DNA from: an uncultured SAR116 cluster alpha proteobacterium
Lineage (GTDB): Bacteria > Pseudomonadota > Alphaproteobacteria > Puniceispirillales > Marisalimonadaceae
Direction of reading: 5' to 3'
Assembly (NCBI GenBank): GCA_902592615.1
Contig: CACJFI010000001.1
Coordinates: forward strand, 62,001-126,000
DNA length: 64,000 nucleotides
Below are positions 25,880-62,726 of this stretch, one piece after another. The notes below the pieces were generated by a model. It searched no databases and was not told the origin of the DNA. It saw nothing but the letters and a program-made list of their open reading frames with translations. How positions within the stretch are numbered: the stretch's first letter is position 1; each line of letters begins with the position of its first letter. A program made the translations under genes and the position numbers.

Positions 25880-27418
25880 ATGTCAAAAAAACCAAATATT
25901 ATATTTATTACGTCAGATCAACAACGAGCAGATTGTTACGGTTTTGCTGGTCGTAATATTTTAACTCCACATTTAGATAAATTAGCAAATACAGGCAGTC
26001 GTTTTGACTCATGTATTACTCCAAATTTGGTTTGTCAGCCATCTAGAGCCTCAATTCTAACAGGTCAATTACCTTTTACGCACGGTGTGTGTGACAATGG
26101 CATTGATTTACAGCCTGAGATAGCTGAGCTTGGATTTGCAGAACAATTGAATAAAGTAGGTTATAAAACCTCATTTATTGGTAAAGCTCATTTTGCTACA
26201 TCTTCAACTTTTGAACCTACAGGTACACCAGAATGCAAGCATAGTTCAACAAAGTTTGGTTCTGAATGGTATGGTCCTTACATGGGCTTTAAGCACGTTG
26301 AACTCATGACATTAGGTCACTGGTATAAAGAAAAAGGACCTACTCTTCCGCCAGAAGGTCAACATTTTGAACGTTTTGTATTTGAAGAGGCTGGTGGACC
26401 AGAGATTTTTGATATTTGGCATAAACCAGCTAAACCAGGTTATGGCGCCGCTCAAACTTGGCATTCTTCTTTACCAGTAGCATTGCATTCAAGCACGTGG
26501 TGTGGTGATAGAGCGATTTCATTTTTAAATAATCAAAATAAAGATGAGCCCTTTTGTTCTTGGGTGTCTTTTCCTGATCCTCATCATCCTTTTGATTGTC
26601 CTACCCCTTGGAGTACAATGTATAATTTAGATGACGTCGATTTACCTACAGAGGGACAAAAGGATCTAGACAATAGACCTTGGTGGCATAAAGCTTCTTT
26701 AGAAAGTGAACCAAATCTTGCTGATCCCCAACTTAAATTTTTCAGAGCTAAGCTTTCTCGTTCAGTAGATCAAACTGAAAAACAATTAAGGGAAATGACA
26801 GCAAATTATTTTGGCATGATTTCATTAATAGATCATAATGTAGGTAGAATTATTTTAGAATTGAAAAGATTAGGTATGGATAAAAATACTATTATTATTT
26901 ATTCAACTGATCATGGAGATCTCCTTGGAGATCATGGTCTATATTTAAAGGGACCAACTCCATACGAAGGTCTTTTGAGGGTTGGATTGATCGTAAATGG
27001 ACCAAATATACCTAAAAATAAAATCATTAAAGATCCTGTTTCTACTATGGATATTGCAGCAACCATTTGTGATATTGCTGGAGCAGAATTACCAGATATA
27101 GCTCAAAGTAGAAGCTTAATGCCTGTTATAAATAACAATGAGACAAGAGATGTTGCACATAGTGAGTGGAAAGTTAATGCTAGTAGGTGTGGAGTTGAAT
27201 TAGAACTTCGTACAGTAAGAACAAAGAATGCAAAACTTACAATTGAAAAAAATACTGGTGCTGGTGAAATGTATAATCTTGATTTTGACCCTAATGAGAT
27301 GACAAATATATTTGATGATGATAATTCGAGTAATCTTAAAAAAGAGTTGATGGATATGATTGAAGAAAGACCAGGAAAAGAATTATCAAATTTTGATGAA
27401 CCTGTTGGAATGGCATAA
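25880..27418 (+). CDS. Cys-type sulfatase, cytoplasmic (paralogue A1)
   Basis: A 512-residue alkaline-phosphatase-superfamily sulfatase. The formylglycine motif is C52-Q-P-S-R56 in VCQPSRASILTG. Metal ligands include D13 in ITSDQQ and the Asp-His pair in STDHGDLLGDHG (about residue 342). No signal peptide, so it acts in the cytoplasm. It needs a formylglycine-generating enzyme, and none is in the window. It has the same length as the sulfatase at 56195 and shares long stretches with it (WYGPYMGF, MISLIDHNVGRI), so the two are paralogues. The substrate could be an alkyl or aryl sulfate, or a phosphonate monoester. Confidence 0.93.
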   Translation: MSKKPNIIFITSDQQRADCYGFAGRNILTPHLDKLANTGSRFDSCITPNLVCQPSRASILTGQLPFTHGVCDNGIDLQPEIAELGFAEQLNKVGYKTSFIGKAHFATSSTFEPTGTPECKHSSTKFGSEWYGPYMGFKHVELMTLGHWYKEKGPTLPPEGQHFERFVFEEAGGPEIFDIWHKPAKPGYGAAQTWHSSLPVALHSSTWCGDRAISFLNNQNKDEPFCSWVSFPDPHHPFDCPTPWSTMYNLDDVDLPTEGQKDLDNRPWWHKASLESEPNLADPQLKFFRAKLSRSVDQTEKQLREMTANYFGMISLIDHNVGRIILELKRLGMDKNTIIIYSTDHGDLLGDHGLYLKGPTPYEGLLRVGLIVNGPNIPKNKIIKDPVSTMDIAATICDIAGAELPDIAQSRSLMPVINNNETRDVAHSEWKVNASRCGVELELRTVRTKNAKLTIEKNTGAGEMYNLDFDPNEMTNIFDDDNSSNLKKELMDMIEERPGKELSNFDEPVGMA

Positions 27419-27448
27419 ATTGTAATTAAAGAGGAAATTCTTGTAATT

Positions 27449-28450
27449 ATGAAAACTAGTAAAATCAATGGTGAATGGACGACAAAAGAGCTTCAAATTG
27501 ATAAAAACTGGTTAATAAATTTAGATCATTTAGATAAACAAGAACTTTTTAAAGCTACTAAATTTGCAATTAAATCTAATAAATCTCTTTATGATATCAA
27601 AGATTCAGACTTTCCATTAAATAATTTTGTTAATAAAATTAATCTTATAAAAAAACAAATTCAGTTTGGCTTTGGATTTGTTGTTATTAAAGGGCTTCCT
27701 ATCACAGAATTTAATGATGAAGAAACAAAGGTAATGCTCTGGGGTTTAGGACAATATTTGGGATATCCTGAAAAACAAGATAAAGCAGGATCATTACTTC
27801 ACGTGGTTACTGATACTGGGGCAAGTTTTGCCAATACAGATCATATAAGAGGATTTCAAACAAATGAAGAACTTCAATTTCATACTGATGGAGCAGATAT
27901 TTTTGCTCTATTATGCATAAGAAATGCCAAAACAGGAGGATTATCTAAATTAGTATCATCAGTAGCAATATTTAAAGAAATTGAACAAAACAGACCTGAT
28001 CTTGCCAGAGTTCTTCAAGAACAATTTCATTTTGACTCCAGAACTCAAAATCCAAACGACGACAAAATTCAAAAAATTCCAATATTTGTAAAGCATGATA
28101 ATCTCATAACAGCTTTATATAAAAGAAGATATATCAGGTCAGCTCAACGTTTTGAAGAAGTCCCAAAGTTAACAAAATTACAATTTGAAGCTCTTGATCT
28201 GTTGGATAAATTATGTAATGACGATAAGTTTTGTTTAAGCATGAATCTAAGTCCTGGAGATCTAGAAATAGCTAGTAATGCAACTACGTTTCACTCAAGG
28301 GAAACTTATGAAGATTATCCCGATCCTAATAAAAGAAGATGCATGATTAGATTATGGTTATCTATGTCTTATGAAAGACCCCTTCCAGAAGTTTATAAGA
28401 GAACTAGAGAATGGGAGCCAACATTCAAAAGAAGAGGTTTGATTAATTAA
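27449..28450 (+). CDS. TauD/TfdA-like (gamma-butyrobetaine-hydroxylase type) dioxygenase
   Basis: A 333-residue Fe(II)/2OG oxygenase of the longer TauD type. GFGFVVIKGLP precedes the core. H145 and D147 lie in QFHTDGADI, the distal His in ATTFHSRETYEDYP, and the Arg-rich end RRCMIRLWLSM carries the 2OG Arg. Relatives hydroxylate quaternary amines, aliphatic acids or sulfonates. It follows the sulfatase by 30 bases and precedes the second CaiB gene by 79, so it may act on the desulfated product. Confidence 0.9.
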   Translation: MKTSKINGEWTTKELQIDKNWLINLDHLDKQELFKATKFAIKSNKSLYDIKDSDFPLNNFVNKINLIKKQIQFGFGFVVIKGLPITEFNDEETKVMLWGLGQYLGYPEKQDKAGSLLHVVTDTGASFANTDHIRGFQTNEELQFHTDGADIFALLCIRNAKTGGLSKLVSSVAIFKEIEQNRPDLARVLQEQFHFDSRTQNPNDDKIQKIPIFVKHDNLITALYKRRYIRSAQRFEEVPKLTKLQFEALDLLDKLCNDDKFCLSMNLSPGDLEIASNATTFHSRETYEDYPDPNKRRCMIRLWLSMSYERPLPEVYKRTREWEPTFKRRGLIN

Positions 28451-28529: not shown

Positions 28530-29735
28530 ATGTTTAAACCACTCAAGGGTATAAAAGTTTTGGATTTGACTGGAGTTTTAGCAGGTCCTTATTGCACTTA
28601 CCAATTAGCTTTACTGGGTGCTGAGGTAATTAAAATAGAGAATCTTGAGCAAGGTGATTGGACAAGAGTTGGTGGAAAAGATCAATCTCTTAATAGCTTA
28701 TATATGGGGACTTCATATCTAATTCAAAATTCAGATAAAAAGTCTATCCAAATAAACTTAAAGTCAGAAAAAGGAAAAGAAATTGCATTAGAGTTGATTA
28801 AAAGGGTTGATATTTTTGTTGAAAACATGAGACCTGGAAAAGCTGAAAAATTAGGACTTGGTTGGAAAGAGGTTTCAGATATTAATAATAAAATTATTTA
28901 TTGTTCAATTTCTGCATTCGGTCAGGATGGACCTCTCAAGAATAGGGGTGCTTATGATCACGTAGTTCAAGGGATGAGTGGAATTATGACCACTACTGGA
29001 ACTAAACAAACTGGCCCAACTAAAGTGGGTTCTCCCTTCATAGACTACTCAACGGGAATGAATGCTGCATTTGCTATCGTGTCTGCGATTCATGAGGTTA
29101 AACAAAAACAAAAATCTATTAGACTTGATGTTTCCATGCTTGATACGTCATTTTTGTTAATGGCAAATATGGTTACTGAACATTTGAATTCTGGATGGAT
29201 ACCTACCCCAATGGGAAATGAAGCGCAAAGTGGTTCACCTGCATCTGGAATGTATAATACTCTAACATCCCCTATTTTACTTGCTGCCAACAATAATATT
29301 CAATTTTTATCTTTATGTAAGGCACTAAACACAATTGGGTCATTTGATACTGAAAAGTGGAAATCAGAAAAAATAAGAAAATCAAAACAAGGTGAGCTTA
29401 GAGAGGAATTTCAGAATATATTTATTACAAAAACAGCAGAAGATTTAGAAATACTTTTAAATAATTTTAATGTGCCTGCTGGAAAAATAAGATCATTACC
29501 AGAGGCAGTAGCAGAAAAGCAGTTCAAAGAAAGAAAATTGTGGAATAAAATAGATATAAAAAGTATCAACAAAGAATTTTTTGTGCCAAGTATTGGTTTC
29601 AAAGTTGATAAAAGTGAGGTTTCACCCAAAAATCCACCTCCAACTTTAGGAGAGAACACTAAGGAAGTTTTGCAAAACATTGGAATCAAGAAAGATCTAT
29701 TGGTGGCACTTAAAAAAGAAGGTGTGATTAATTAA
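28530..29735 (+). CDS. CaiB/BaiF (class III) CoA-transferase
   Basis: A 401-residue protein, paralogue of the one at 24475: same MFKPLKGIKVLDLTG opening, GRxxGP-type loop as FGQDGPLKNRG, catalytic Asp143 in GAYDHVVQ, and RLDVSMLDTSF. A clear ribosome-binding site (TTAGGAG, about 8 bases before ATG) supports the start. It converges with the enolase-superfamily gene, overlapping by 8 bases. The repeat of TauD plus CaiB on both sides of one sulfatase suggests two rounds of oxidation and CoA activation, or two related substrates. Confidence 0.93.
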   Translation: MFKPLKGIKVLDLTGVLAGPYCTYQLALLGAEVIKIENLEQGDWTRVGGKDQSLNSLYMGTSYLIQNSDKKSIQINLKSEKGKEIALELIKRVDIFVENMRPGKAEKLGLGWKEVSDINNKIIYCSISAFGQDGPLKNRGAYDHVVQGMSGIMTTTGTKQTGPTKVGSPFIDYSTGMNAAFAIVSAIHEVKQKQKSIRLDVSMLDTSFLLMANMVTEHLNSGWIPTPMGNEAQSGSPASGMYNTLTSPILLAANNNIQFLSLCKALNTIGSFDTEKWKSEKIRKSKQGELREEFQNIFITKTAEDLEILLNNFNVPAGKIRSLPEAVAEKQFKERKLWNKIDIKSINKEFFVPSIGFKVDKSEVSPKNPPPTLGENTKEVLQNIGIKKDLLVALKKEGVIN

Positions 29736-30840
29736 ATTTCTTGAGTTCTAATTCATTTATTGTTACGCCCACCCCAAAACCATTTGCTGGAAGTCTTGAT
29801 TTACCATTTATAATTTCAGGATTTGGATTTTCTAACAATGTTTTAAAATATTCAGTTTCTTTATATTGATATTCCATTAAAGGTGGTTCTTTCGCAGCTG
29901 CGCAGATCTGAAGAGTGTGAGCGTGAGCTACTGGGCCAGTTGGATTATGAGGTGAAAATTTTACATTATGGTTATATAAAAATTTATCTAAAGCTATTAG
30001 CTCATCCGGCCCACCTGCGTATTTAATATCAGGCATCATAACGTCGTACACACCAGATTTGACATATTTTTCAAAACCTACAGTAAGAACTTTTTTTTCC
30101 AAACCAGCTAAAAACATACCTTTTGAATTTGTAATTGATCTTATTTTTTTTAATTCTCCTAAACTTTCAATTGTTTCTGGTATAGGGCACTCTAACCAAT
30201 ATAAATTTAAACCCTCAATCTCTTTGATTAGATCTATAGTTGTTTCAAAATTAAATCTCCAATGACAATCAATCATTACATCAATCTTTGGATCCACATT
30301 TTGCTTTATTATGTTTATCCTTTCTAATCCAGGTTGCATTGCTTTTCGTATCTCTTTAGATGTCAACCCTGCTGAAACCTCATCAAAAGGAGCAAACTTA
30401 ATTTTTGTAAAGCCATCCTTTAATACTTCATGCAGTTTATTTACAATTCCTTTAGGAGTTCTATCGACAGTTGAACGGTTAAAATTAGCATATATGCTTA
30501 CTTTTTTATGATTATTACCAAAAATTGAACTAATTGATTTTTCTTTTAACTTACCCTCAATATCCCATAAACATTGCATGATTGCAGAACTCAGTGCAGC
30601 TTCTACAATATTACTAAAAGGTAATAGTTTTTTTAAATCTTGAGGTGTTAAATAATTCTTATTCAATATCAATTCAAAAATCTTTTCACTTTGTGTCAAA
30701 ATTTCGTTCTCTTTTCCTTGAAGTGTTGCTTCACCCCATCCAGAAATACCAATATCATTTTCTAATTTTACAAATAACCATTTGGTTTTCTTCGTAACAT
30801 TAGCTTCAAATAAATTGGATTTAATAATTTTATTTGTCAT
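29728..30840 (-). CDS. enolase superfamily (mandelate racemase/muconate lactonizing) protein
   Basis: A 370-residue enolase-superfamily protein. The capping domain covers about residues 1-120, then the barrel. Visible active-site parts are K146/K148 (TKIKFA), metal ligands D191 (MIDCHW), E217 (WLECPIPE) and E248, then D271 and H298 in FSPHNPTGPVA, the dehydratase-like arrangement of sugar-acid dehydratases. The exact substrate is unknown. It is transcribed against the CaiB gene and divergently from the aconitase X genes 89 bases away. Confidence 0.88.
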   Translation of the reverse strand: MTNKIIKSNLFEANVTKKTKWLFVKLENDIGISGWGEATLQGKENEILTQSEKIFELILNKNYLTPQDLKKLLPFSNIVEAALSSAIMQCLWDIEGKLKEKSISSIFGNNHKKVSIYANFNRSTVDRTPKGIVNKLHEVLKDGFTKIKFAPFDEVSAGLTSKEIRKAMQPGLERINIIKQNVDPKIDVMIDCHWRFNFETTIDLIKEIEGLNLYWLECPIPETIESLGELKKIRSITNSKGMFLAGLEKKVLTVGFEKYVKSGVYDVMMPDIKYAGGPDELIALDKFLYNHNVKFSPHNPTGPVAHAHTLQICAAAKEPPLMEYQYKETEYFKTLLENPNPEIINGKSRLPANGFGVGVTINELELKKFN

Positions 30841-30929: not shown

Positions 30930-32156
30930 ATGCACTTAAATGATGAAGAAAAATCAATGCTTAATGGTGATTTTGGTAAAGCAAAGAAATGGGCACTAGA
31001 ACATCAAATAAAAGTAGGAAGTTTTTTTTCTGCCAGGAAATTTGTAAATGTAAGTCAAGCACATATGATGGTGGATCCTGAGTCAATAGGTCAAGCAGGA
31101 GTTATTTTTTTAGAAGATTTAGTTAATAAGGGTGCTAAAGTATCTATCCCTACTATAACTGACCCAAGAGGTGTTGATTTGAATTATTATAAGCCACTAG
31201 GTCAGACCGAAGAAATGGCTGAAATAGATCGAAGAACAATTAAAGCTTGTACTTCAATGGGTATTATGATGACTGACACTTGTGTTAATTATCAAACTAT
31301 TATGCCCCCAGTCTATGGAGAACACGTTGCGTATGGTGATACAGGTGTAGTAATTTATTCCAACAGTGTATGTGGAGCAAGATCTAATTTTGAGGGAGGT
31401 CCTTCAGCTTTAGCTGCAGGTTTGACTGGAAGAACACCTGATTATGGTCTCCACCTTGATGAGAATAGGTTACCAACTAAGAGATTTTGTGTGAAATACC
31501 AACCAAAAGATCTAACAGATTGGGGAATTTTAGGAGCTATTATTGGAAAACAACTAGGGTCTTATTGGGAAGTTCCCATAGTAGAGGCTTTAGAAGTAGT
31601 TCCTAACTCTGATGAAATGAAACACTTGGGAGCCGCTATGGCAAGTTATGGATCCACACCTTTATTCCATCTTCATAAAATTACACCTGAGGCAAAGAAT
31701 CTTAAAATTGAACAATTTGATAATCTTGATTTAATCGACATAAATTCGTCTGATTTTGAATCCTTAAAATCTTTATTTGGTCGAAAGGGTGATAAAATTG
31801 ATGTAGTTGTTTTTGCTGCACCTCAATTATCAATAGTTGAAATGCAAAAAGTTGCTAGTTTAAGCAAGGATAAAAGCTTTAAGGTACCAGTCATAGTTTG
31901 TACATCACCACAAGTATATGCAGACTCATTAAGAATGGGATTTATTGAAAAAATCGAAAATTCTGGTGCAAAGGTTTTACAGGGTACCTGTTTCTATCAA
32001 CAATACGCTCGTGAAATTGGAGAGGCAAATGGTTGGAAAAAATTATTAAGTAATTCAACAAAAATTGTTAATATATTAGGTGGCTATGGATATGCACCTG
32101 CCTTAGCAAGTATGGAAAATTGCATTCTAGGAGCAGTCAAAGGGGAAATAGTGTGA
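30930..32156 (+). CDS. aconitase X catalytic (large) subunit, DUF521
   Basis: A 408-residue AcnX large subunit. Conserved pieces are MMVDPESIGQAG, ITDPRGVD, and Cys118 (TDTCVNYQ), Cys148 (NSVCGARSNFEGG) and a third Cys in LQGTCFYQQYAR that probably hold the metal or Fe-S centre. AcnX enzymes dehydrate cis-3-hydroxyproline or phosphomevalonate. This two-subunit bacterial form is usually the hydroxyproline type, but no partner reductase is nearby, so the substrate stays open. A strong ribosome-binding site (AAGGAGGAAAT) precedes the ATG. It overlaps the small subunit by 4 bases. Confidence 0.92.
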   Translation: MHLNDEEKSMLNGDFGKAKKWALEHQIKVGSFFSARKFVNVSQAHMMVDPESIGQAGVIFLEDLVNKGAKVSIPTITDPRGVDLNYYKPLGQTEEMAEIDRRTIKACTSMGIMMTDTCVNYQTIMPPVYGEHVAYGDTGVVIYSNSVCGARSNFEGGPSALAAGLTGRTPDYGLHLDENRLPTKRFCVKYQPKDLTDWGILGAIIGKQLGSYWEVPIVEALEVVPNSDEMKHLGAAMASYGSTPLFHLHKITPEAKNLKIEQFDNLDLIDINSSDFESLKSLFGRKGDKIDVVVFAAPQLSIVEMQKVASLSKDKSFKVPVIVCTSPQVYADSLRMGFIEKIENSGAKVLQGTCFYQQYAREIGEANGWKKLLSNSTKIVNILGGYGYAPALASMENCILGAVKGEIV

Positions 32157-32560
32157 GTAAAATATTGAAATGTCATCCAGGTATTGGTGATAAGACAGAA
32201 GGGATTGTTCTATGTGCCAACGATAATTTTTCTGCTCGTTATGATTTAGATAGAATTAAAGGTGTCTTTTCAAGACCACAACATAAATTATTTGGTAAGT
32301 CGTATAAAAACAAGATTTTAGTTCTTAATGAATCTAAGGGAGGTGTTGCTTCTGCATGGATGTTATATGAAATGAAGGTAAGGGATGTTGTTCCAAAAGC
32401 AATTCTTTTTAACAAGGCTAATACCATATTAGCTCAAGGAGCAGCTCATGCAAATTTAACTATGTGTGACAGATTTATAGACGGGGATATAACATCTTTA
32501 TTAAAAACTGGTGATAAAGTCATTGTCGATCCCTCAGGAGGTTATATAGAAATTATATAA
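32153..32560 (+). CDS. aconitase X swivel (small) subunit, DUF126
   Basis: A 135-residue swivel-domain protein from GTG 32153, which overlaps the large-subunit stop as GTGA and lies 8 bases after an AGGGG ribosome-binding site; a longer frame from 32120 is unlikely. Family motifs are LNESKGGVASAWMLYEM, the helix PKAILFNKANTILAQGA, and the C-terminal VDPSGGYIEI with the Ser that contacts substrate carboxylate. It completes the active site of the large subunit as a heterodimer. Confidence 0.92.
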   Translation: MSKILKCHPGIGDKTEGIVLCANDNFSARYDLDRIKGVFSRPQHKLFGKSYKNKILVLNESKGGVASAWMLYEMKVRDVVPKAILFNKANTILAQGAAHANLTMCDRFIDGDITSLLKTGDKVIVDPSGGYIEII

Positions 32561-32627: not shown

Positions 32628-32648
32628 ATCATTTTTTTGGGGGTTATA

Positions 32649-33623
32649 ATGGTTTTTTTTAAAAATAAATTTAAACTAATTTATGTAATTTTATGTTCTT
32701 TTCTGTTTTCTTTTGGTGCTCATTCATCTGATTATCCAACGAAACCAATAAATGTAATGGTTGGTTATGCAGCTGGAGGGGGAACAGATTCTTATGCCAG
32801 AACATTAGCCAGCTTTATACATGAGCATTTAGGTATGCCTTTTATGATTACTAATAAACCTGGCGCCAGTGGTTTCATTGCAGCTAAAGCTGTTGCAGAT
32901 GCAAAATCTGATGGATATAGGCTATATGTTATGGCGCCTGGACCTTTTTTCATTAAAGATGTATTAGATGGTGATAAAGCTAAAGTTAAGCCATTAGAGG
33001 TTTTTAGACCTCTTGGGACAGTAGGTGTTCTAAATACTTCATTAATGGTTCCTATGGACTCTCCTTTTAAAACTGCCAAAGATTTTGTTGATTATTATAA
33101 AGCAAATCCTGATAAAGTCGCGAGGTGGGCAAATACAGGGAATGCAAGTTTACATACTTTAGGTGGACATGCTTTTTTACAAGCTAATGGAATAAAAGCT
33201 CAAACAATACCGCATAAAGGCGGTGCAAAAGCAAGGCTTTCGATTATTAGTAAACAAGTTGATTACGGTTTTGTTGGAATACAATTGTTAGCTGGTTTTG
33301 ATACGAAGATGCGACCTTTAGGTGCTTTAGGGAATACCAGAGATCCAAATTATCCAGATGTTCCAACTGTTGAGGAAGCTGGTTTGCCTCCAATGGGAAT
33401 TGCAAATCCAATGATGGTTTGGGCAAAAAAAGATATTCCAGAAGATGCAGCTCAAAAATTAATTGTCGCAATTAAAAAAGTTGCTGAGAGTAAAGGTTTT
33501 AAAAAATTAATTAAAAAGCTTGGTTTATCAGCTATTTATGCTTCTCCAGAAGAATCAGTTAAACTATTAAACGATCTAGGAGCTCAAGTGACACCTGTTG
33601 CTAAAAGAGTTTTCAATAAGTAG
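32649..33623 (+). CDS. tctC: TTT transporter solute-binding protein TctC
   Basis: A 324-residue periplasmic binding protein of the Bug/TctC family. The signal peptide is residues 1-23 (KLIYVILCSFLFSFGAHSS). The mature start YPTKPINVMVGYAAGGGTD is the family hallmark carboxylate-binding loop. The start at ATG 32649 is set by a GGGGG ribosome-binding site 5 bases upstream; the TTG at 32637 lies ahead of it. It binds an organic anion for TctAB. It is separated from tctB by an attenuator-like hairpin. Confidence 0.93.
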   Translation: MVFFKNKFKLIYVILCSFLFSFGAHSSDYPTKPINVMVGYAAGGGTDSYARTLASFIHEHLGMPFMITNKPGASGFIAAKAVADAKSDGYRLYVMAPGPFFIKDVLDGDKAKVKPLEVFRPLGTVGVLNTSLMVPMDSPFKTAKDFVDYYKANPDKVARWANTGNASLHTLGGHAFLQANGIKAQTIPHKGGAKARLSIISKQVDYGFVGIQLLAGFDTKMRPLGALGNTRDPNYPDVPTVEEAGLPPMGIANPMMVWAKKDIPEDAAQKLIVAIKKVAESKGFKKLIKKLGLSAIYASPEESVKLLNDLGAQVTPVAKRVFNK

Positions 33624-33627
33624 AATG

Positions 33628-33658
33628 AAAAAGGCCATTTACAAATGGCCTTTTTTTT
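33628..33658 (+). terminator. rho-independent terminator/attenuator between tctC and tctB
   Basis: The stem GGCCATT/AATGGCC with loop TACA is extended by flanking A and T runs and followed by eight T. It lies directly after the tctC stop and ends 3 bases before the tctB start, so it probably lets most transcripts stop after the binding protein. Confidence 0.9.
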
Positions 33659-33661
33659 AAA

Positions 33662-40843: not shown

Positions 40844-40851
40844 GAGATGAT

Positions 40852-42342: not shown

Positions 42343-42358
42343 CTAAAAGGAGGACGAC

Positions 42359-51188: not shown

Positions 51189-51220
51189 GCTTTAACTCAA
51201 ATTTTTGAAAACTATCTTTT

Positions 51221-51298
51221 TTAAAATCTTTCTTTTTTTGGAATCCTGCTACTAGTTTTCATTACTGCTTCATATGTTAGAGCATTTTTTTGTTTTAA
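51221..51298 (-). pseudogene. sulfatase C-terminal fossil after a complete sulfatase gene
   Basis: Directly after the stop of the sulfatase at 51299, and in the same frame, 25 codons read LKQKNALTYEAVMKTSSRIP and then KKERF before a TAA. This matches the C-terminus of the sulfatase at 61245 (HIDAVMNTSSAGIQRKGRF): AVM-x-TSS, I and K-x-RF align. It is probably the tail of a deleted or recombined sulfatase paralogue. The upstream protein already has its own complete end, so stop-codon read-through is less likely. Confidence 0.6.
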
Positions 51299-52789: not shown

Positions 52790-52825
52790 ACTATTTCCTT
52801 AAAAAGTTTAGGATTTTATTTTGTT

Positions 52826-54304: not shown

Positions 54305-54359
54305 AATTAGTAAGTTATAAAAATAAATTAAATTTAAAACTATTTAAAGAAACTAAAAG

Positions 54360-56195
54360 TTAATTATACGGTTTAATAAAATGACCTTCTTCAACTTTGA
54401 TTAAATTAATTTTTTCTGGTTCGTAACCATTGGGTTTAACTAAACTTGGAATTTCGTCAGTCATTAAATTAAACTTTTTCTTTCTAAGTTTAGGGTCGGC
54501 AATTGGAACAGCTTTCATTAGTTTTATTGTATAAGGATGCTGAGGATTTTCAAAAACTTGGCTTCTTGAGCCAAGTTCAACTATTTCTCCTAGATACATT
54601 ACTGCTACTTTATGACAAACTCTTTCAATTACAGCCATATCATGACTTATGAATAAATAAGATAGTCCATACTCTTCTTGAAGTTCCATCATCAGATTTA
54701 TAACTTGTGCTTGAATTGACACGTCTAAAGCTGAAACAGCTTCATCTGCAATAATTATGCTAGGGCTTAAAGCAAGCGCTCTAGCTATCCCTATTCTTTG
54801 TCTTTGTCCTCCTGAAAACTCATGTGGATAATTATTTATATGAAATTCGCTTAAACCAACTTTTTTAAAAACCGCAATTAACTTATCTTTAATTTCTGTC
54901 TCATGACAAACTTTATGCAATTTCATTCCTTCAGATACTATTTGCCCAACTGTAAGCCTTGGATTCAATGATGAGTATGGATCTTGAAAGACAATTTGAA
55001 TGTCTTTTCTTACAGAAAACATATCTTTTTTTGATAATGAGATAATATCTTTACCTCTAACTTTAATTTTTCCTGAATAAGGTTCTACTAATCTCATAAT
55101 AGATTTTCCAAGTGTAGACTTTCCACATCCACTTTCTCCCACTATTCCAATAGTTTCTCCTTGTTGAAGTAACAAATCTATTCCTTCAACAGCATGAACA
55201 TTTCCTTTTGAAAAACCAAAACTTGATTTAATAGAAAATCTAGTTATTAAATTTTCAATCTCTAAGATAGGAGGTTCTGATCTTCTTACATTATCTTTTA
55301 TATCAATTAATTCATTATTATTAGTTTCTATTACATCATCGCCTTCTGTTCTTTTTATATCAAGATTTGAAAATTTTGCAGGTAATGATCTACCCCTCAT
55401 ACTTCCTAATCTTGGGACAACTGCCAACAATGATTTAGTATATGGATGTTTGGGATTATGAAAAATCTCATTTACTTTTCCTTCTTCAACCTTTTTTCCT
55501 CCTAGCATAACTACTACTCTATCAGCAATTTCAGCAACTACACCCATGTCATGAGTAATAAAAACAACAGACATTCCAATGTCTTTTTGAAGTTTTTTTA
55601 TTAGTCCTAGTATCTGGGCTTGTATAGTCACATCTAATGCCGTTGTTGGTTCATCAGCTATTAAAACAGCAGGTTCGCAAACTAAAGCCATTGCTATCAT
55701 TACTCTTTGTCTCATACCTCCTGACATTTCGTGTGGATAGCCATTTAACCATCTTTTAGAATCTGGTATCTGCACTACATCAAGAATATTTTTAACTTTT
55801 TGATATGTTTCTTTTTTTGATAATGTTAAGTGTCGATCAAGCACTTCTGAAATTTGTTTTCCAATAGTCATCAATGGATTTAGAGATGTCATTGGTTCTT
55901 GAAAAATCATCGAAATTTTTTTTCCTCTTATATTCCTGATCTCTGTGTTAGAAGTTTTTATAATATTTTCACCCTCAAAAAAAATTGAACCAGAAGTTAT
56001 TTTTCCAGGAGGGTTTGGTATTAATTTTAAAATAGCCAGTGCACTCACAGACTTTCCAGAGCCAGACTCACCAACAATCGCAAGAGTTTCGCCTTTCTTA
56101 ACGTTCCATGAAACATCACTTACTGCATTAACTTTTTGACCTCTTACATCAAACTCAACACTTAGGTTTTTTACCTCTAAAGCTACCTTTTTCAT
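54360..56195 (-). CDS. fused double ATP-binding protein of peptide-type ABC importer
   Basis: A 611-residue protein joining DppD-like and DppF-like ATPases. Half 1 has Walker [10 protein letters not shown] (residues 41-49), signature MSGGMRQRV and Walker [12 protein letters not shown]. Half 2 has Walker [10 protein letters not shown] (about residue 365), signature [15 protein letters not shown] and Walker [12 protein letters not shown]. Each ends with the oligopeptide/dipeptide C-terminal domain ([24 protein letters not shown]). It powers the DppBC permease genes upstream. Its ATG overlaps the sulfatase stop by one base (TAATG). Confidence 0.95.
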
Positions 56196-57733
56196 TACAT
56201 TCCAACTTGATCAAGTTTTGGAATGGCATCATTTGGTCTACTTCTGATCATCTCCATTAATTCTTTTTGAATTTTTGAATAAGCAGTATCATTAAAGACA
56301 TTATTCATTTCTCCAGGATCTTCTGATAAAATATACATCTCACCAGTTTGTGATATTTCTTCATATATTAGTTTTGCACCTTTAGTCCTAGCAACTCTTA
56401 AATCTAATTCTAATCCAGTTCTGGAGCTTCTTAAATCCCATTCACTATATGCAAAATCTCTGTTTTCTTTATCATGTATTAATCCTAGTAAACTCTTACC
56501 ATTTAATTCCATAGGATTTGTTATGTTCGCATAGTCATATAATGTAGCAGGGATATCCAATGTTGAAACAGGATCATCTATTATTTGGTTTTTGGGAATA
56601 TTGGGGCCTTTCATAATACAACCGACTCTCAATAAGCTTTCGTAAATAAATGGACCTTTTAATAAAAGTCCATGATCTCCAAGTAACTCACCATGGTCTG
56701 CTGTAAATATTACTAAAGTATTTTCTGCTATACCCAGATCGTTTAATGCTGTCATTATTCTTCCTACATTATGGTCAATAAGTGATATCATTCCATAATA
56801 ATTTGAAATTAAATGACGAAGCTTTTTTTCTTCGGGAGGAAAAATTCGTGACCATTTTGCCCTATGTTTAACTAAATTTTTGTCTGGCATATTAGGCTTG
56901 CCCTCAAAAGTTTTTTTATGCCACCAAGGTCTTATTTCAAAATCTCTTTCAGGGTTTTCTGGCAGATCTATTTCATCTGGGTTATACATATAACACCAAG
57001 GTTCAGGACAATTAAAAGGCGTATGTGGATCAGGGAAAGATGTCCATAATACAAAAGGTTCATCCTTATTTTTTTCTAAGAATTTAATTGTTTGATTTCC
57101 TACCCAAGTAGAATTGTGAAATGCTACTGGCAATCCTGAATTCCAAGTTTGAGGAATATCCAGATTAGGTGCTAATTTCGAGCTGTACTGCTCATTTCTT
57201 TTTGCACCCATCCCTCCAGAGTGTAACCACCTTTCATAATGATGTACATTTGGAGGTGAGGGTATGTCACCATCACCGCCTAAACCAGCATAATGTCCAC
57301 CTACCATTGTTTCGACATGATCAAAACCCATGTAAGGTCCATACCAATCAGGACCTAATTTTGATAAACTAAATCTGCATTCAGGAGTGCCTGTTGGTTT
57401 AAACGTCTTATTACAAGAAAAATGAAGTTTCCCAACAAAGCCACTTTTATAACCATTATTTGCGAAGGTTCTTCCAAAGCCTTTTTCTCCAAAATCTGGA
57501 TTTAAGTCTATACCATTATCACTAACACCATGTGTTCTGGGCAATAAGCCTGTTAACATTGAACTTCTAGAAGGCATGCACACAGGATTTGGTGTAATAC
57601 AGTTTTTAAACCTGGTACCATCCAAGGCTAATTCATCAAGATGTGGTGTCTTAACTTTACGTTTTTCAAAACCATAGCAATCACCTCTATGTTGATCTGA
57701 GGTTATAAAAACAATATTAAAAGGTTTTTTCAA
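56195..57733 (-). CDS. Cys-type sulfatase, cytoplasmic (paralogue A2)
   Basis: A 512-residue sulfatase. The formylglycine site is C52-M-P-S-R56 in VCMPSRSSMLTG. Metal ligands are D13 (ITSDQH) and TADHGELLGDHG. It is the same length as the protein at 25880 and a clear paralogue of it. No signal peptide. It is inserted inside the ABC transporter operon between the DppC-like permease and the fused ATPase genes, so the enzyme and the importer are likely made together. Confidence 0.94.
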   Translation of the reverse strand: MKKPFNIVFITSDQHRGDCYGFEKRKVKTPHLDELALDGTRFKNCITPNPVCMPSRSSMLTGLLPRTHGVSDNGIDLNPDFGEKGFGRTFANNGYKSGFVGKLHFSCNKTFKPTGTPECRFSLSKLGPDWYGPYMGFDHVETMVGGHYAGLGGDGDIPSPPNVHHYERWLHSGGMGAKRNEQYSSKLAPNLDIPQTWNSGLPVAFHNSTWVGNQTIKFLEKNKDEPFVLWTSFPDPHTPFNCPEPWCYMYNPDEIDLPENPERDFEIRPWWHKKTFEGKPNMPDKNLVKHRAKWSRIFPPEEKKLRHLISNYYGMISLIDHNVGRIMTALNDLGIAENTLVIFTADHGELLGDHGLLLKGPFIYESLLRVGCIMKGPNIPKNQIIDDPVSTLDIPATLYDYANITNPMELNGKSLLGLIHDKENRDFAYSEWDLRSSRTGLELDLRVARTKGAKLIYEEISQTGEMYILSEDPGEMNNVFNDTAYSKIQKELMEMIRSRPNDAIPKLDQVGM

Positions 57734-57747
57734 TTTCCTTCCCCTTC

Positions 57748-58656
57748 TTATGTTGTTACTTTATCTTTTGGATCTAAATGGTCTCTAATCCCATCTCCGA
57801 AAAGATTAAAGGCGATCATTGTTGTAAATAAGAAAATACCAGGTGCAACTGAAACCCATGGAGCAAATGTTAAAAATTCATTTCCTTTAGCTATCATGGT
57901 TCCCCAACTAGGTGTTGGTTCTTGAATTCCCAAGCCTAAAAAGCTTAAAGTTGACTCCATTAATATTACATTACCTATCAATACTGTAGAAAGAACAATT
58001 ATAGGTCCTATGCAATTTGGCAATACATGTATGAAAATAATTCGTAAATGACTCATTCCTAATGCGTGGCATGCTGAAATATAGTCTAATTCCTTAATAG
58101 ATAAAACCACACCTCTCGTGACTCTTGCGAACTGAATTATTCTTCTAATAGATAATGCAAGAATTAAATAAATTGGTTCAGGCCCTAATATGGCTACCAT
58201 TGCTAAAGCTAGTATCACTCCTGGTATGGACATAAATACATCTACAATTCTCATGATAATCTCATCAACAATACCAACAAAATAGCCGGCAATAGCACCT
58301 AAGCTTACTCCAGTTATTAATCCAAAAATAATAGTTGTCAAAGCTAATGACAATGAGGTGGTAGTACCGTGTAAAGCTCTAGAAAAAATATCTCTTCCTG
58401 TAGTGTCAGTACCCATTAAATGTTCTAAGCTAGGAGGTGCCAATGCATTTGATGGATTAACCATATCATATTGATGAGGTGATAAAAATGGTGCAAAAAT
58501 TGCTATAAAAATTAGAAATATTACTAATGAAAAGCTAAATATATTTAATTTTTTACTAAAAAATAATTTTAAACTTTTAATGAAACTCGACCAAGTTTCA
58601 TTTGAAGAAAAATTAAAATTGTTTGCATTGTTTTGATATTTAATTTTTGATTTCAT
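57748..58656 (-). CDS. peptide-type ABC transporter permease, DppC-like
   Basis: A 302-residue permease with about six helices. The N-terminal OppC-type helix is followed by the APPSLEHLMGTDTTGRDIFSR signature, split here as HLMGTDTTGRDIFSR. The EAA-type motif is ISACHALGMSHLRIIFIHVLP, with the LGLGIQEPTPSWGTMI block near the end. It overlaps the DppB-like gene by 4 bases (ATGA), and the sulfatase start lies 15 bases beyond. Confidence 0.95.
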   Translation of the reverse strand: MKSKIKYQNNANNFNFSSNETWSSFIKSLKLFFSKKLNIFSFSLVIFLIFIAIFAPFLSPHQYDMVNPSNALAPPSLEHLMGTDTTGRDIFSRALHGTTTSLSLALTTIIFGLITGVSLGAIAGYFVGIVDEIIMRIVDVFMSIPGVILALAMVAILGPEPIYLILALSIRRIIQFARVTRGVVLSIKELDYISACHALGMSHLRIIFIHVLPNCIGPIIVLSTVLIGNVILMESTLSFLGLGIQEPTPSWGTMIAKGNEFLTFAPWVSVAPGIFLFTTMIAFNLFGDGIRDHLDPKDKVTT

Positions 58657-59600
58657 AATCTAATTCTTGGATCTATTAAGATGTAAATCATATCAACAAT
58701 TAGATTTATTACTGCAAAAGACACACCTATCACGAGTATAGCACATTGCATAACAAGAATATCTTTATCATGAATAGCAGTAATCAATAGTTCTCCCATT
58801 CCTCTAATTGTAAAAATAACTTCAATGGCTACTGCCCCTCCGACAAGATTGCCTGTCTGAAAACCTATTACTGTTATGACTGGATTTATTGCATTTCTTA
58901 ATGCATGAACAAAAAATATTCTACTACGGAAAAGTCCTTTAGAAGTTGCCGTTCTGATCATATCATGAGACAAAACCTCAAGCATACTTGATCGTGTCAT
59001 CCTAGCTATAAGTGCAGCTGGATGCAAAGCTATTGAGGCGACTGGAAGCACAAGGGCTTTGGGACCAAATTCTTCAACAACTCCTCCTATTGGAAACCAG
59101 TCCAAATTATAGGCAAATATTAATATTAATATTAATGCAAACCAAAATACTGGTGTACTTACTCCAATTATTGAAATCAGCCTAGCTATTAAATCTCCAG
59201 CTGTACCTTGAAAAACCGCTGAAATCATTCCTATAGACACACCAATTATAATTGCAGTTAGCATTGTTAAACCAAGTAAATATAAAGTATTAGGTAAAGC
59301 CTCTATTACTGCATCCATAACAACATAATCATTCACATAAGATCTTCCAAAATCTCCTTGCAAAGCATTCCATATCCAATGAACATATTGTATTAATATA
59401 GGTTTATCGAGGCCTAGTTCTTTTCTGACTCTCTCAACTTCTTCTTGATCAACTCCTGAGTAGCCCTCAAGATCAATGCCTAAAGCTGCATATGCAGGAT
59501 CACCAGGTGTTGCGTGACCTAGTATAAAAGCAAATGTTGCAATTCCTAATATTGTAGGTAAGAAGGTAAAAAGCCTTCTCAAAAATACTTTTAAAAACAT
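58653..59600 (-). CDS. peptide-type ABC transporter permease, DppB-like
   Basis: A 315-residue permease with six helices. The family opening LRRLFTFLPTILGIATFAF and ELGLDKPILIQYVHWI are present. The EAA-type motif is IRTATSKGLFRSRIFFVHAL. It pairs with the DppC-like permease. The gene begins after an attenuator-like hairpin that separates it from the binding-protein gene. Confidence 0.95.
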   Translation of the reverse strand: MFLKVFLRRLFTFLPTILGIATFAFILGHATPGDPAYAALGIDLEGYSGVDQEEVERVRKELGLDKPILIQYVHWIWNALQGDFGRSYVNDYVVMDAVIEALPNTLYLLGLTMLTAIIIGVSIGMISAVFQGTAGDLIARLISIIGVSTPVFWFALILILIFAYNLDWFPIGGVVEEFGPKALVLPVASIALHPAALIARMTRSSMLEVLSHDMIRTATSKGLFRSRIFFVHALRNAINPVITVIGFQTGNLVGGAVAIEVIFTIRGMGELLITAIHDKDILVMQCAILVIGVSFAVINLIVDMIYILIDPRIRL

Positions 59601-59614
59601 AAATTTCTCGACAT

Positions 59615-59642
59615 AAAAACCCCACTTTAAAAAAGTGGGGTT
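59615..59642 (-). terminator. hairpin terminator/attenuator between binding protein and permeases
   Basis: On the minus strand the stem AACCCCACTTT/AAAGTGGGGTT with a 3-base loop is followed by T's. It lies 10 bases after the stop of the solute-binding protein and 15 bases before the DppB-like start. It probably reduces expression of the permeases relative to the binding protein. Confidence 0.88.
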
Positions 59643-59651
59643 AAAGTGTGT

Positions 59652-61229
59652 TTATTTATCTAACCAGACTTTCCTTAAATCTTCCATACCTTTCAACTTT
59701 CCAGTTTTAAAGTTTTTAACCCAAGGATTTCTTACTGTTCTATGATTTCTCCAATTAGCAAAGGCAACAGGAACATCGTCAAAAATTATTTTCTGAAGTT
59801 TAATTAATGACGGTTTAGCAATAGCAGGATCATTAGTTTTAACAATTTCGTCTAAAAGTTTTTCTGCTTCAGGATTTTGATAGCCACCCTCTTTGTTATA
59901 ATAACTTGGATTACTAGAACCACCACTATGGTACATATTCCAAGTAAATTCTTGTATTGTTGGCCCACCAAGCATTTGCCAAAGAGCAAGTTCGTATTTA
60001 CCAGTATACATTTGTTTTAGTAATGCACCCATTTTTGTTTTTACAATAGATAAATCTATACCAGCAGCCTTTAATTGAGCTTGAATTAATACAGCTCTTT
60101 GGACGTGGGCGCCCCCTGTTCCATGAAGCATTTTAAGTTTTAATTTTTTTCCTCCTGGACCATAACCTTCTTCTTTTAAAAGTTGTTTAGCTTTGGCTGT
60201 GTTTTGTCGAATTTTTGATAAATCTTCAGCTTTAATAAATGCTGGATGCCATGGTGGGAAGATACTTTCAACTTCTTCACCTGCTCCTCTATAAACATTA
60301 TCAATTAGTTCTTTACCATTAATTGCATATTGAATAGCCTGTCGAATTTTTTTCTTTTTAAGTACAGGGTTTTTAGTGTTCATAGGTATTAATGTAAATG
60401 TTGAAGCTTTACCTTCCTGTAAAATTAAATTACTTCCCTTGAATTGAGGAAATTGAGATTCTGGAAAAGTGTTAATCGTGTCTAATTCACCTTTTTTTAA
60501 TTTTAAAATTCTTACACTTCCTGAAGAAATTAACTTAGCTTTAAAACCACCTAAGCAAGGAAGTCCCTTACGGTAATAGTTAGGATTTCTATCAAGATGC
60601 AAATGATCTTTTGCTTTAAAACTTTTCATGACGAATGGACCTGTACCAACAGCTACTTTGGTGCCATAGTCTCTACCAGCGTTTTTAACTGCTTTTGGAG
60701 AAGCAATTCTTAGTGATGCTGCAACATCCCATAAAAAAGTAGGCCATTGTCCATTTGGTGTGAATTTAATTGTATGACTGTCTATAATATCATAACTTTT
60801 CAGAAACTTTTTCCATACCCCTGAATATGGAGAAGCAATTTTACCTGATTTTAGTCTATCAACATTAAATGCTACTGCCTCAGCATTAAATTCTGATCCG
60901 TCATGAAACTTTACACCTTTTCTTAAATTAAATGTATAAGAACCATCGGCATTTTTTTTGGGAACTTCACTTGCTAACCCCGGTGCCACACTTAAGTCAT
61001 AAGTCATGTCTAGTAAACTATCATATATTAAAAAAGAATAATAAACTGGATTTGCTCTAACTCCTGCATCCATAGATGGGTAAGCAAGGTCAACAGTTTT
61101 AAATATTCCACCGGTTTTAGGACACTTAAATTCTGCATACGCAAAAGAAGCACCAAAAAACATAGTTAATGTTACTATTGAAAAAATCATGTACATATAT
61201 GATTTGATTTTATTATGTAATGTTAACAT
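59652..61229 (-). CDS. family 5 extracellular solute-binding protein (DppA-like)
   Basis: A 525-residue periplasmic binding protein. Residues 1-32 are a long signal peptide (core MIFSIVTLTMFFGASFAYA). The family motifs YTFNLRKGVKFHDGSEFNAEAVAFN (seen as YTFNLRKGVKFHDG and FNAEAVAFN) and GTGPF are present. The ligand may be a peptide, opine, sugar acid or another small solute. It lies between a sulfatase gene and the permeases, so the ligand may be the sulfated substrate. Confidence 0.95.
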   Translation of the reverse strand: MLTLHNKIKSYMYMIFSIVTLTMFFGASFAYAEFKCPKTGGIFKTVDLAYPSMDAGVRANPVYYSFLIYDSLLDMTYDLSVAPGLASEVPKKNADGSYTFNLRKGVKFHDGSEFNAEAVAFNVDRLKSGKIASPYSGVWKKFLKSYDIIDSHTIKFTPNGQWPTFLWDVAASLRIASPKAVKNAGRDYGTKVAVGTGPFVMKSFKAKDHLHLDRNPNYYRKGLPCLGGFKAKLISSGSVRILKLKKGELDTINTFPESQFPQFKGSNLILQEGKASTFTLIPMNTKNPVLKKKKIRQAIQYAINGKELIDNVYRGAGEEVESIFPPWHPAFIKAEDLSKIRQNTAKAKQLLKEEGYGPGGKKLKLKMLHGTGGAHVQRAVLIQAQLKAAGIDLSIVKTKMGALLKQMYTGKYELALWQMLGGPTIQEFTWNMYHSGGSSNPSYYNKEGGYQNPEAEKLLDEIVKTNDPAIAKPSLIKLQKIIFDDVPVAFANWRNHRTVRNPWVKNFKTGKLKGMEDLRKVWLDK

Positions 61230-61244
61230 TTTCTCCTCCCTTTT

Positions 61245-62726
61245 TTAAAATCTTCCTTTTCTTTGAATCCCTGCTGAGCTGGTATTCATTACTGCATCAA
61301 TATGTGAGTGCATTAATTTTAATTTTAACTTGTCATCTATTCCTTTTTCCCAAAGATCTTTAAATTCTCCTGGATCATTTTCTAAATCATAAATTTCACC
61401 AAATCCAAGCCCATGATAAATTATTGTTTTGTGTCTTCCGTCATAAGTCATTGTTGCGTGTGTGTCTCTTACAATTCTTGGAGACCCTAAAGAGTCATTG
61501 AATTCTGCAACTACAACAGGCTTGTGAAAGTCAATATCTTTACCAGAACACATTTTTTCAAACAAAGACTTGCCCTGCATATAATAAGGTATATCTATTC
61601 CTGCAGCATCAAGAATAGTTGGTGCTAAATCAACTAATTCAACCAATGCTGAACTAATAATGTCTGACTTAATTTTCCCAGGCCAAGAAAACATTAATGG
61701 CACATGAACCAAACCTTCAAAAAAACGACTTCCTTTATAAATAAGTCCATGATCACCCAACATTTCACCATGATCACTATGAAAAATAATAAGAGTATTT
61801 TCAAGTTGGCCTATTTCTTTTAAATGATCAACAAGTATACCAAAATGTTTATCTAAAAGTTCAATCATGGCATAATAATGTGCCTTAACGATTTTACCAT
61901 TGAATGACTCAGGAGGCCAATTACCAGGGTTTTTATACCCACCTTTTGGCGGAGGTGGAGGATTTTCTCCGCCAGGATTTACAGCATCAACTGCTTGCTG
62001 ACATACCTCTTGGAATTTTTTTTGTCTTTCAATATCATTTAATTTAAATAAAGGTCCTGGAAGATCATCTGGATTATACCTTTCTCTATATTCTTTTGGA
62101 GGATCAAAAGGAGGATGAGGGTCAAAAGGGTTGATTGACAACATCCATGGACCGTTTCTTTTTTTGTTAATAAATTTTATTGCCATTTCAGTGCACCAAG
62201 TAGTTTGATGAAATTTTTCAGGCACTCCGTCACAGCAAAAATTATTTACTGGTTCAAAAAGTTTTTTTAAATCCTGTTTTTTTTCTTCTACAATCCACCT
62301 CTTGTAATCATCAGTTTCTGGGTTCAGTTTAGGAGTTGAATCATGACTATAGTAAAATGTGTCGTACCCATCATCGGTCCTTTTTTCAACGCCTCCTTCA
62401 GCGCTTGAGAGATGAAGTTTACCAATTAGCCCACAATCATATCCTGCGTCTTTAAGAATTTTAGTCACGAGTACTTCGTGGTCTGGAAAATATTCTGCAC
62501 CATTTCTGTGAGCATGAGTGGACGCAGGGTACCTTCCTGTTAAAAATGATGCTCTACTTGGCGTACAAATTGGACTTTGTACATAAGCATTTTTGAATGT
62601 ATATCCATTTTTCATAAATTTATTTATATTAGGAGTGTTTATGTATTGATTGCCAAGACCATTTATTGTGTCAAATCTTTGCTGGTCAGTACAATACCAA
62701 ATTATATTAGGTAAACTTTTCTTCAT
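61245..62726 (-). CDS. Cys-type sulfatase, cytoplasmic
   Basis: A 493-residue sulfatase. The formylglycine site is C54-T-P-S-R58 in SPICTPSRASFLTG. Metal ligands are D14 (YCTDQQ) and HSDHGEMLGDHG. An insert with GGENPPPPPKGGYKNPGNWPP (split: GGENPPPPPKGG and YKNPGNWPP, about residues 247-268) is absent from the other six. No signal peptide. It is the first gene of the ABC-importer operon and is divergent from LysR at 62906. Its C-terminus resembles the fossil at 51221. Confidence 0.94.
   Translation of the reverse strand: MKKSLPNIIWYCTDQQRFDTINGLGNQYINTPNINKFMKNGYTFKNAYVQSPICTPSRASFLTGRYPASTHAHRNGAEYFPDHEVLVTKILKDAGYDCGLIGKLHLSSAEGGVEKRTDDGYDTFYYSHDSTPKLNPETDDYKRWIVEEKKQDLKKLFEPVNNFCCDGVPEKFHQTTWCTEMAIKFINKKRNGPWMLSINPFDPHPPFDPPKEYRERYNPDDLPGPLFKLNDIERQKKFQEVCQQAVDAVNPGGENPPPPPKGGYKNPGNWPPESFNGKIVKAHYYAMIELLDKHFGILVDHLKEIGQLENTLIIFHSDHGEMLGDHGLIYKGSRFFEGLVHVPLMFSWPGKIKSDIISSALVELVDLAPTILDAAGIDIPYYMQGKSLFEKMCSGKDIDFHKPVVVAEFNDSLGSPRIVRDTHATMTYDGRHKTIIYHGLGFGEIYDLENDPGEFKDLWEKGIDDKLKLKLMHSHIDAVMNTSSAGIQRKGRF

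Follow-up and report, generated by a model that had tools for sequence, protein, structure and literature searches.

In 2007 Benjdia reportedly inferred a third sulfatase maturation system in Escherichia coli, a conclusion said to have been based on heterologous sulfatases. Activation of Cys-type sulfatases without either the formylglycine-generating enzyme (FGE) or the anaerobic sulfatase-maturating enzyme (anSME) was still an open question in the accessible part of PMC6189696 (2015), which cites the 2007 E. coli deletion work, a precedent for a third maturase, and our literature search, which covered papers outside subscription, found no published answer. A second described system is BetC, the choline sulfatase of Ensifer meliloti (SulfAtlas S1_12; PDB 6fny, 6g5z, 7pth), a Cys-type enzyme of the S1 fold that uses a small sulfate ester. 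Its host has a putative FGE according to the same portion of PMC6189696. Here we describe seven Cys-type sulfatases, S1 to S7, of an uncultured SAR116 alphaproteobacterium; they lie in a 64-kb stretch of contig C1 of assembly G000 (1.72 Mb, 84.6% complete), which we call the window. As in E. coli, Cys-type sulfatases occur here without a known responsible maturase, but SAR116 differs in that native multi-sulfatase genomes show no match to either known enzyme across most of the order. The window sulfatases share with BetC the S1 fold, the Cys-type motif and, as we propose, the use of small sulfate esters, but they reach at most 299 bits against the choline sulfatase model TIGR03417, lack the choline clamp and, unlike the E. 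meliloti enzyme, come from an assembly without FGE. The surface-ocean alphaproteobacterium AEGEAN169 'Ca. Indicimonas' is similar in having about five sulfatases, few carbohydrate-active enzymes and no full polysaccharide pathway, but the available part of PMC11366302 discusses fucose use and mentions neither importer-linked cytosolic sulfatases nor maturation. As the best explanation we propose, with moderate confidence, a composite island for small sulfated molecules whose sulfatases would most likely depend for their activation on a maturation route still to be found. The seven genes are as follows.

25880..27418, plus strand: S1, 512 amino acids, CQPSRASILTG, PF00884 149 bits, ratio of nonsynonymous to synonymous substitution rates (dN/dS) 0.04–0.07
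38879..40330, plus strand: S2, 483 amino acids (490 from TTG at 38858), CVPSRAILATG, PF00884 141 bits
43397..44836, plus strand: S3, 479 amino acids, CVPARASFATG, PF00884 146 bits
51299..52789, minus strand: S4, 496 amino acids, CIPARRSIMTG, arylsulfatase model NF010322 415 bits (cut-off 481)
52826..54304, minus strand: S5, 492 amino acids, CLPARMSLLTG, PF00884 168 bits
56195..57733, minus strand: S6, 512 amino acids, TTG start, CMPSRSSMLTG, PF00884 146 bits
61245..62726, minus strand: S7, 493 amino acids, CTPSRASFLTG, PF00884 168 bits

All seven exceeded the PF00884 cut-off of 25 (141–168 bits) and also matched SGSH_C. The motifs CQPSR, CVPSR, CVPAR, CIPAR, CLPAR, CMPSR and CTPSR (S1 to S7) agree with the first-pass annotation, which had listed seven full-length sulfatases with C-x-P-(S/A)-R; the open reading frames lie where it placed them, with two corrections to the starts (the 38879 gene has an alternative TTG at 38858, and the 56195 gene begins with TTG). 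Membership of the S1 type is indicated in all seven by C/S-x-P/A-x-R together with the metal- and sulfate-site residues D, D-H, H and K, and the catalytic positions D, C, P, R, H and K are invariant among them. A PF00884 search of the whole assembly returned eight segments, two of them from a single split gene, and hit no gene besides these seven. Pairwise identities range from 24 to 54%, the highest being that of S6 and S1 (54%), so the cluster did not arise by one recent duplication.

We searched for maturases in the organism's own family (n = 58), in its order (n = 136, with many relatives 50–90% complete) and in a sample of the class (n = 192, for which a completeness of at least 90% was specified). 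A high-quality subset of the order (n = 43) comprises genomes with completeness of at least 90% and contamination of at most 5%. Sulfatases were counted at E 1e-30 in the own-family genomes and at E 1e-40 in the class sample, anSME was searched with TIGR03942 (cut-off 349 bits, run within the order), and FGE with a profile, A1, built from ten aligned FGEs of the class sample (threshold E 1e-20 in the order, at least 270 bits in the class sample). In 14 control genomes, PF03781 matched four and anSME exceeded its cut-off in two.

Neither FGE nor anSME was found in the window or anywhere in the assembly, where TIGR03942 gave no match at E 0.001. The first-pass annotation had reported this absence for the window and concluded that maturation must come from elsewhere; the absence extends to the whole assembly, and the conclusion, if taken to mean an FGE elsewhere in the genome, is contradicted within the assembly, where the lone PF03781 protein lacks the catalytic cysteines. 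This protein (G000:C1:156333-156980; L001:1489-2250), about 30 kb beyond the window, was considered as an FGE and rejected. It has 253 amino acids, the SUMF1 fold and a signal-peptide-like start that makes it look exported, and GGSWWYGK replaces the cysteine pair, which in all ten aligned class-sample FGEs appears as C-x3-Y-C after GGS. PF03781 matches occur in 37 of the 58 own-family genomes, and GGSWWYGK was present in 12 of 12 such proteins read (own genome and 11 relatives). A role as a sulfatase partner was also rejected, since nine of the 16 sulfatase-bearing genomes of the family have no PF03781 match at all (G001, G002, G003, G007, G017, G023, G032, G036 and G039). Judged by size and score and counted by eye, the GGSWWYGK protein occurs in 27 of 42 sulfatase-free and 3 of 16 sulfatase-bearing genomes of the family, and some copies are interrupted by stops.

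The same absence was seen among relatives. Sulfatases occur in 16 of the 58 own-family genomes, and nothing in this family scored above 65 bits against the FGE profile (full FGEs score 270–430), including G039, which is 99% complete and has four sulfatases. TIGR03942 was over its cut-off in 0 of the 58, with weak matches in 21. Across the order, 86 of 136 genomes are sulfatase-positive (36 of 43 in the high-quality subset) and 14 are FGE-positive by profile (8 of 43), some of these matches being fragments and the G150 protein being the one read. All 14 FGE genomes carry sulfatases, and 72 of the 86 sulfatase-positive genomes are without FGE. No genome of the order (0/136) had an anSME over the cut-off. 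The one weak match of the order-wide search, a radical SAM protein with an anSME-like score of 79.7 bits (L017, G040:C6:54056-55147), belongs to a genome without these sulfatases.

It is conceivable that an ordinary FGE was missed, either in unassembled parts of the genomes or as a homologue too divergent for the profile, and the incompleteness of the own assembly and of many relatives would allow for this. We consider it unlikely. FGE is absent from 28 of the 36 sulfatase-positive order genomes that are at least 90% complete, against about 0.94 expected from incompleteness had all of them possessed it (calculated with rounded completeness values). The sulfatase-positive genomes G271, G313, G254, G276 and G238, all 100% complete, are not FGE-positive, nor are G039, G257, G273, G277, G315, G320 and G324 (99% complete); three FGE-negative genomes are single contigs (G271 with nine sulfatase matches, G313 with eight and G238 with one). 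The search was sensitive enough to catch an FGE fragment of 80 positions in G312. In the class sample, 76 of 192 genomes have such sulfatases, of which 16 have FGE by profile and 12 lack any PF03781 match, and the A1 scores fall from 271 to 144 bits with no values between. Six genomes score 120–144 bits; the three of these loci that were read (L033, L047, L048) all lack the cysteine pair.

The sulfatases nevertheless appear to be maintained. We read the active sites of complete sulfatases of at least 420 residues, dropping shorter or incomplete ones; those of the class sample, which are more distant, came from 18 FGE-negative and 8 FGE-positive genomes outside SAR116. The catalytic Cys was kept in all 141 (105/105 from 47 FGE-negative genomes and 36/36 from 15 FGE-positive genomes, the window seven included). 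Two residues on, the FGE-negative set (n = 105) has 97 P and 8 S, and the FGE-positive set (n = 36) has 34 P and 2 A. The idea that C-x-S-x-R marks the loss of FGE was rejected because the difference (8/105 versus 0/36, p 0.088) is not significant. The C-x-S-x-R sulfatases are L083:10143-11642, L084:9290-10789, L085:8643-10205, L094:9167-10627, L095:8689-10149, L099:12019-13473, L145:938-2482 and L147:990-2564.

Orthologues of S1 were found in G039, G032, G036 (a fragment at a contig end), G001 and G003, those of S4 and S5 in G001 and G002, and those of S7 in G039, G032, G036, G012, G001 and G002 (a fragment). For the seven sulfatases, dN/dS against orthologues was 0.04–0.19 (26 pairs), compared with 0.00–0.26 for adjoining importer genes, by a simple counting method in which dS was saturated (>1) in many pairs and below 0.1 in some. 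These values bear on whether the island is a remnant, with sulfatases that were gained together with an FGE elsewhere and are now inactive or on their way out. Its patchy distribution, with sulfatases in only the 16 own-family genomes and FGE usually absent, fits such a history. The low dN/dS already disfavours it, and with seven intact reading frames and up to nine sulfatase matches in an FGE-negative genome (G271) we regard it as very improbable. The first-pass annotation had named the lack of any FGE in the genome as telling against its proposal. The search was run and none was found, yet we do not read this as a refutation, since the absence extends across the clade even as purifying selection acts on the enzymes.

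Either a maturase still to be identified or turnover by the unmodified cysteine would then be needed. We tentatively propose, with slightly less than even confidence, that SAR116 and many other alphaproteobacteria mature their native Cys-type sulfatases by a third formylglycine-forming system. The competing possibility is that the sulfatases work with unmodified Cys, at a turnover that, though slow, would suffice for an oligotroph with slow growth and make a maturase unnecessary. According to the available part of PMC6189696, recombinant E. meliloti choline sulfatase free of formylglycine was still a multiple-turnover enzyme, with a kcat of 0.27 per s, and activity without the modification was likewise seen in a phosphonate monoester hydrolase. 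Choline sulfatase is the nearest solved relative of S2, S3 and S5 and the nearest fold to S3, and the absolute conservation of the cysteine in FGE-negative genomes speaks for this possibility too. However, a 5- to 2500-fold higher kcat is expected with formylglycine (PMC6189696, same portion), and 97 of the 105 sulfatases from FGE-negative genomes still carry the recognition motif C-x-P-x-R. We favour a third maturase over unmodified Cys because the recognition motif is kept and the expected gain in activity is large, and we consider the unmodified enzyme doubtful, though the most plausible of the alternatives.

In a speculative form of this proposal, an iron/2-oxoglutarate dioxygenase would hydroxylate the cysteine beta-carbon, and the resulting thiohemiacetal would collapse to formylglycine. 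Two window genes between sulfatases (27449 and 46066) encode members of this enzyme class. Dioxygenases were found near sulfatases at 19 of 45 FGE-negative loci versus 1 of 18 FGE-positive loci (p 0.006), but outside the window's own family the association was 4/22 versus 1/18 (p 0.36). We therefore rejected it as a maturase sign, explained by shared ancestry of that family, and argue only the general form of a third maturase.

Several observations weigh against the explanation proposed here. FGE status is somewhat clustered on the sulfatase tree, with 25 changes compared with a shuffled mean of 32.1 (1 of 500 shuffles as low). No neighbouring gene is common to all FGE-negative loci among 959 open reading frames clustered from 60 loci and the window, so no candidate maturase emerged; the common neighbours are importers, enolase, short-chain dehydrogenase-like proteins, CoA-transferase and TauD, none of them universal. 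FGE is present in the 14 order genomes and can be the maturase there; in G150 it is adjacent to a sulfatase (L112:6338-7330). G033, alone among the 16 sulfatase-positive own-family genomes, has TIGR03942 matches, very weak ones of 23 and 18 bits. The absence of FGE from the own genome, at 84.6% completeness, is weak taken alone. The substrate, discussed below, is deduced mostly from family matches below cut-off. Finally, the evidence is sequence, which cannot choose between a third maturase and unmodified Cys.

The FGE-positive genomes also provide close comparisons. The FGE gene of G150 is convergent with, and directly follows, a sulfatase–TctCBA cassette. The cassette, sulfatase–regulator–TctCBA–sulfatase, occurs in FGE-positive G150 and G303 and in FGE-negative G254, and FGE adjoins it in G150 but not in G254 or G303; its regulator is presumably MarR-like. 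Similarly, a three-sulfatase operon with a Tct system is found in FGE-negative G271 and FGE-positive G308, at 89–93% identity.

We next consider the identity of the enzymes. None of the seven passed an NCBIfam cut-off. The best solved relative is the choline sulfatase of E. meliloti for S2, S3 and S5 and a carrageenan sulfatase for S1; the nearest solved proteins are a gut enzyme annotated as choline sulfatase and an arylsulfatase of Enterococcus for S4, the sulfatase module of a Formosa rhamnosidase for S6 and the dimeric sulfatase SpAS1 for S7. An AlphaFold2 model of S3 (mean predicted local distance difference test, pLDDT, 77; predicted template modelling score, pTM, 0.85) matched choline sulfatase best in the PDB (Z 45, 28% identity). 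The label choline sulfatase was rejected all the same: the best TIGR03417 score among the seven is 298.7 bits (cut-off 433), and neither GW-x13-W nor WYHN of the choline-clamp hairpin is present in any of them. GW-x13-WYHN is given as the choline-binding hairpin motif in the accessible part of PMC9063841.

The first-pass annotation had also allowed for phosphonate esters as substrates, and the seven might be hydrolases of phosphonate or of phosphate mono- or diesters instead of sulfatases. PehA, RlPMH and BcPMH belong to the same superfamily and have the C-x-P-x-R motif in common with the seven. The alignment of phosphonate monoester hydrolases with the S3 model spans its full length, S7 scores 130 bits against the Rhizobium phosphonate monoester hydrolase (its best solved match is 175), and two window dioxygenases weakly match phosphonate dioxygenase models (28–32 bits, cut-offs 400–500). 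However, all seven score only 161–181 bits against the PehA model NF045661 (cut-off 900), S2, S3 and S5 are nearest to choline sulfatase, and the fold match of S3 to phosphonate monoester hydrolases is weaker (Z 35–37) than to choline sulfatase. No window protein scanned with NCBIfam had a phosphonate-family match over cut-off. The phosphonate label was therefore rejected, and we judge such hydrolases improbable.

The sulfatases are predicted to be cytosolic. Using the mean Kyte–Doolittle value of the most hydrophobic 12 of the first 40 residues as a proxy for signal peptides, we obtained 0.11–1.34 for the seven sulfatases and 2.25–2.89 for three substrate-binding proteins of the same window, which served as positive controls. 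By this measure no signal peptide was visible on called or alternative starts. Hydrophobic stretches occur in the open frame upstream of the 38879 (1.87) and 52826 (1.80) genes, but no ATG, GTG or TTG precedes them that would allow their inclusion. The earlier claims that the seven lack signal peptides and are cytosolic are thus supported.

The genes surrounding the sulfatases are listed below; iron/2-oxoglutarate dioxygenase genes are also found at 19891, 21899 and 23576, within 6 kb upstream of S1.

24472-25683 and 28530-29735, plus strand: type III CoA-transferases, flanking S1 and the dioxygenase-like gene (NCBIfam 214 and 238 bits, below cut-off)
27449-28450, plus strand: gamma-butyrobetaine-dioxygenase-like protein (NCBIfam 37 bits, below cut-off)
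29728..30840, minus strand: enolase-superfamily protein, galactonate dehydratase-like, MR_MLE N and C domains (131 bits, cut-off 311)
30930..32560, plus strand: AcnX-type dehydratase, large subunit 30930-32156, swivel subunit 32120-32560
32637..35658, plus strand: tripartite importer no. 1, TctC-TctB-TctA, the TctC N-terminus signal-peptide-like
35662..37899, plus strand: DUF3604 protein, 745 amino acids (PF12228 41.7 bits, cut-off 20.4)
40331..43318, plus strand: tripartite importer no. 2, TctB-TctA-TctC, conserved with S2
44850..46037, plus strand: enolase-superfamily protein, sugar-acid dehydratase-like, MR_MLE N and C domains (talarate/galactarate dehydratase 98 bits, cut-off 500)
46066..46911, plus strand: TauD-family 2-oxoglutarate dioxygenase (best solved relative phenoxypropionate dioxygenase, 241 bits)
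47008..47763, plus strand: TauE/SafE family membrane protein (PF01925 81.6 bits, cut-off 32.6)
54360..61229, minus strand: Dpp/Opp-type ABC importer interleaved with S6, comprising a DppDF fusion (54360-56195), DppC (57748-58656), DppB (58653-59600) and DppA (59652-61229)

Three importers are present, as the first-pass annotation had said: two tripartite systems, which we take from their sequences to be of the Tct type, and one Dpp-type ABC system. TctC of importer no. 1 and TctA of importer no. 2 had no NCBIfam match. DppDF passed several NCBIfam cut-offs, DppA was below all of them (best 154 bits), and DppB and DppC are presumably correctly named. Both AcnX subunits matched below cut-off (NF051439, 194.7 bits, cut-off 700; DUF126 family, 73.9 bits, cut-off 163). 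AtsK was rejected as an identity for the TauD-family protein, which scores 127–141 bits against AtsK/Rv3406, 192–199 against TauD and 241 against phenoxypropionate dioxygenase. The TauE/SafE protein is a possible exporter of the sulfite/sulfate type. The DUF3604 protein is kept beside TctA of importer no. 1 and S2 in the closest relatives; its best solved relative was no better than E 0.68, we know of no function for DUF3604, and a literature search found no published link between DUF3604 and sulfatases.

In relatives these genes recur as separate modules. S2 is the only sulfatase match in G007, G017, G022, G023 and G043, always with the AcnX pair, LysR, TctBAC, the CoA-transferase and both enolases, and the AcnX product may identify the substrate of this pathway. 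In G025 and G033 the sole sulfatase is S3, accompanied by a Tct system, a CoA-transferase and enolases; G025 has dioxygenases there as well. In G001 and G002, S7-DppABC-S6-DppDF-S5-S4 forms one unit in the order of the window, with two extra open reading frames between S5 and DppDF. G039, G032, G036 and G012 carry the rest of the island, up to contig limits, without S4, S5, the Dpp genes and S6; the S4-S5-DppDF-S6-DppCBA block (window 49575-62726) is absent there between a GMC oxidoreductase gene and S7. Its presence or absence is a gain or loss, and the window is the union of modules that relatives carry separately.

The joint occurrence of importers, cytosolic sulfatases and genes for the catabolism of small acids in these modules supports the import of intact small sulfate esters. 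The first-pass proposal of uptake of small sulfated substrates is thus well supported: S2, S3 and S4 to S7 recur beside an importer and small-molecule catabolic genes, and no known polysaccharide-degrading enzyme was found among the 35 window proteins scanned for families. The usual cargo of Tct systems is carboxylates, and sugar acids are the substrates of many dehydratases of the enolase superfamily. On these grounds we prefer sulfated sugar acids as the substrate class; the substrates would be small organic acids bearing sulfate, probably sugar acids or other carboxylates. The genes and their motifs, the lack of visible signal peptides, the modules, the constraint and the absence of FGE and anSME matches from these genomes are direct observations, and from there we infer the substrate class, the direction of flow, enzyme activity and the conversion of Cys to formylglycine. 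In such a pathway, the two TctCBA systems and the Dpp-type ABC importer would take up the substrates unaltered, and the seven S1 sulfatases would strip the sulfate in the cytosol, after conversion of their Cys to formylglycine by a route other than FGE or anSME. The enolase-type and AcnX-type dehydratases, CoA-transferases and dioxygenases would use the carbon, and the TauE-type protein might export the sulfur oxyanion.

The same literature search, directed also at sulfatases and sulfate esters in SAR116, gave no account of such a system in the abstracts and passages covered, and the terms 'sulfatas', 'sulphatas' and 'arylsulf' are absent from the main text of the SAR116 sulfur-metabolism genome papers PMC12262181 and PMC8547437. 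Given this silence, the clade probably has a sulfur route that has gone unrecorded, consisting of import and then desulfation in the cytosol. Some SAR116 members are in culture according to the available part of PMC12262181. As a natural lineage of the ocean, SAR116 offers single-contig genomes; both known maturases are mostly absent from it, up to nine sulfatase matches occur per FGE-negative genome (G271), and its close FGE-positive and FGE-negative pairs with the same operons offer a ready comparison. If unmodified Cys does suffice, S1 sulfatases would depend on formylglycine less strictly than textbooks hold. What deserves most attention is that no known maturase was found, and the missing activation step could be hunted in SAR116.

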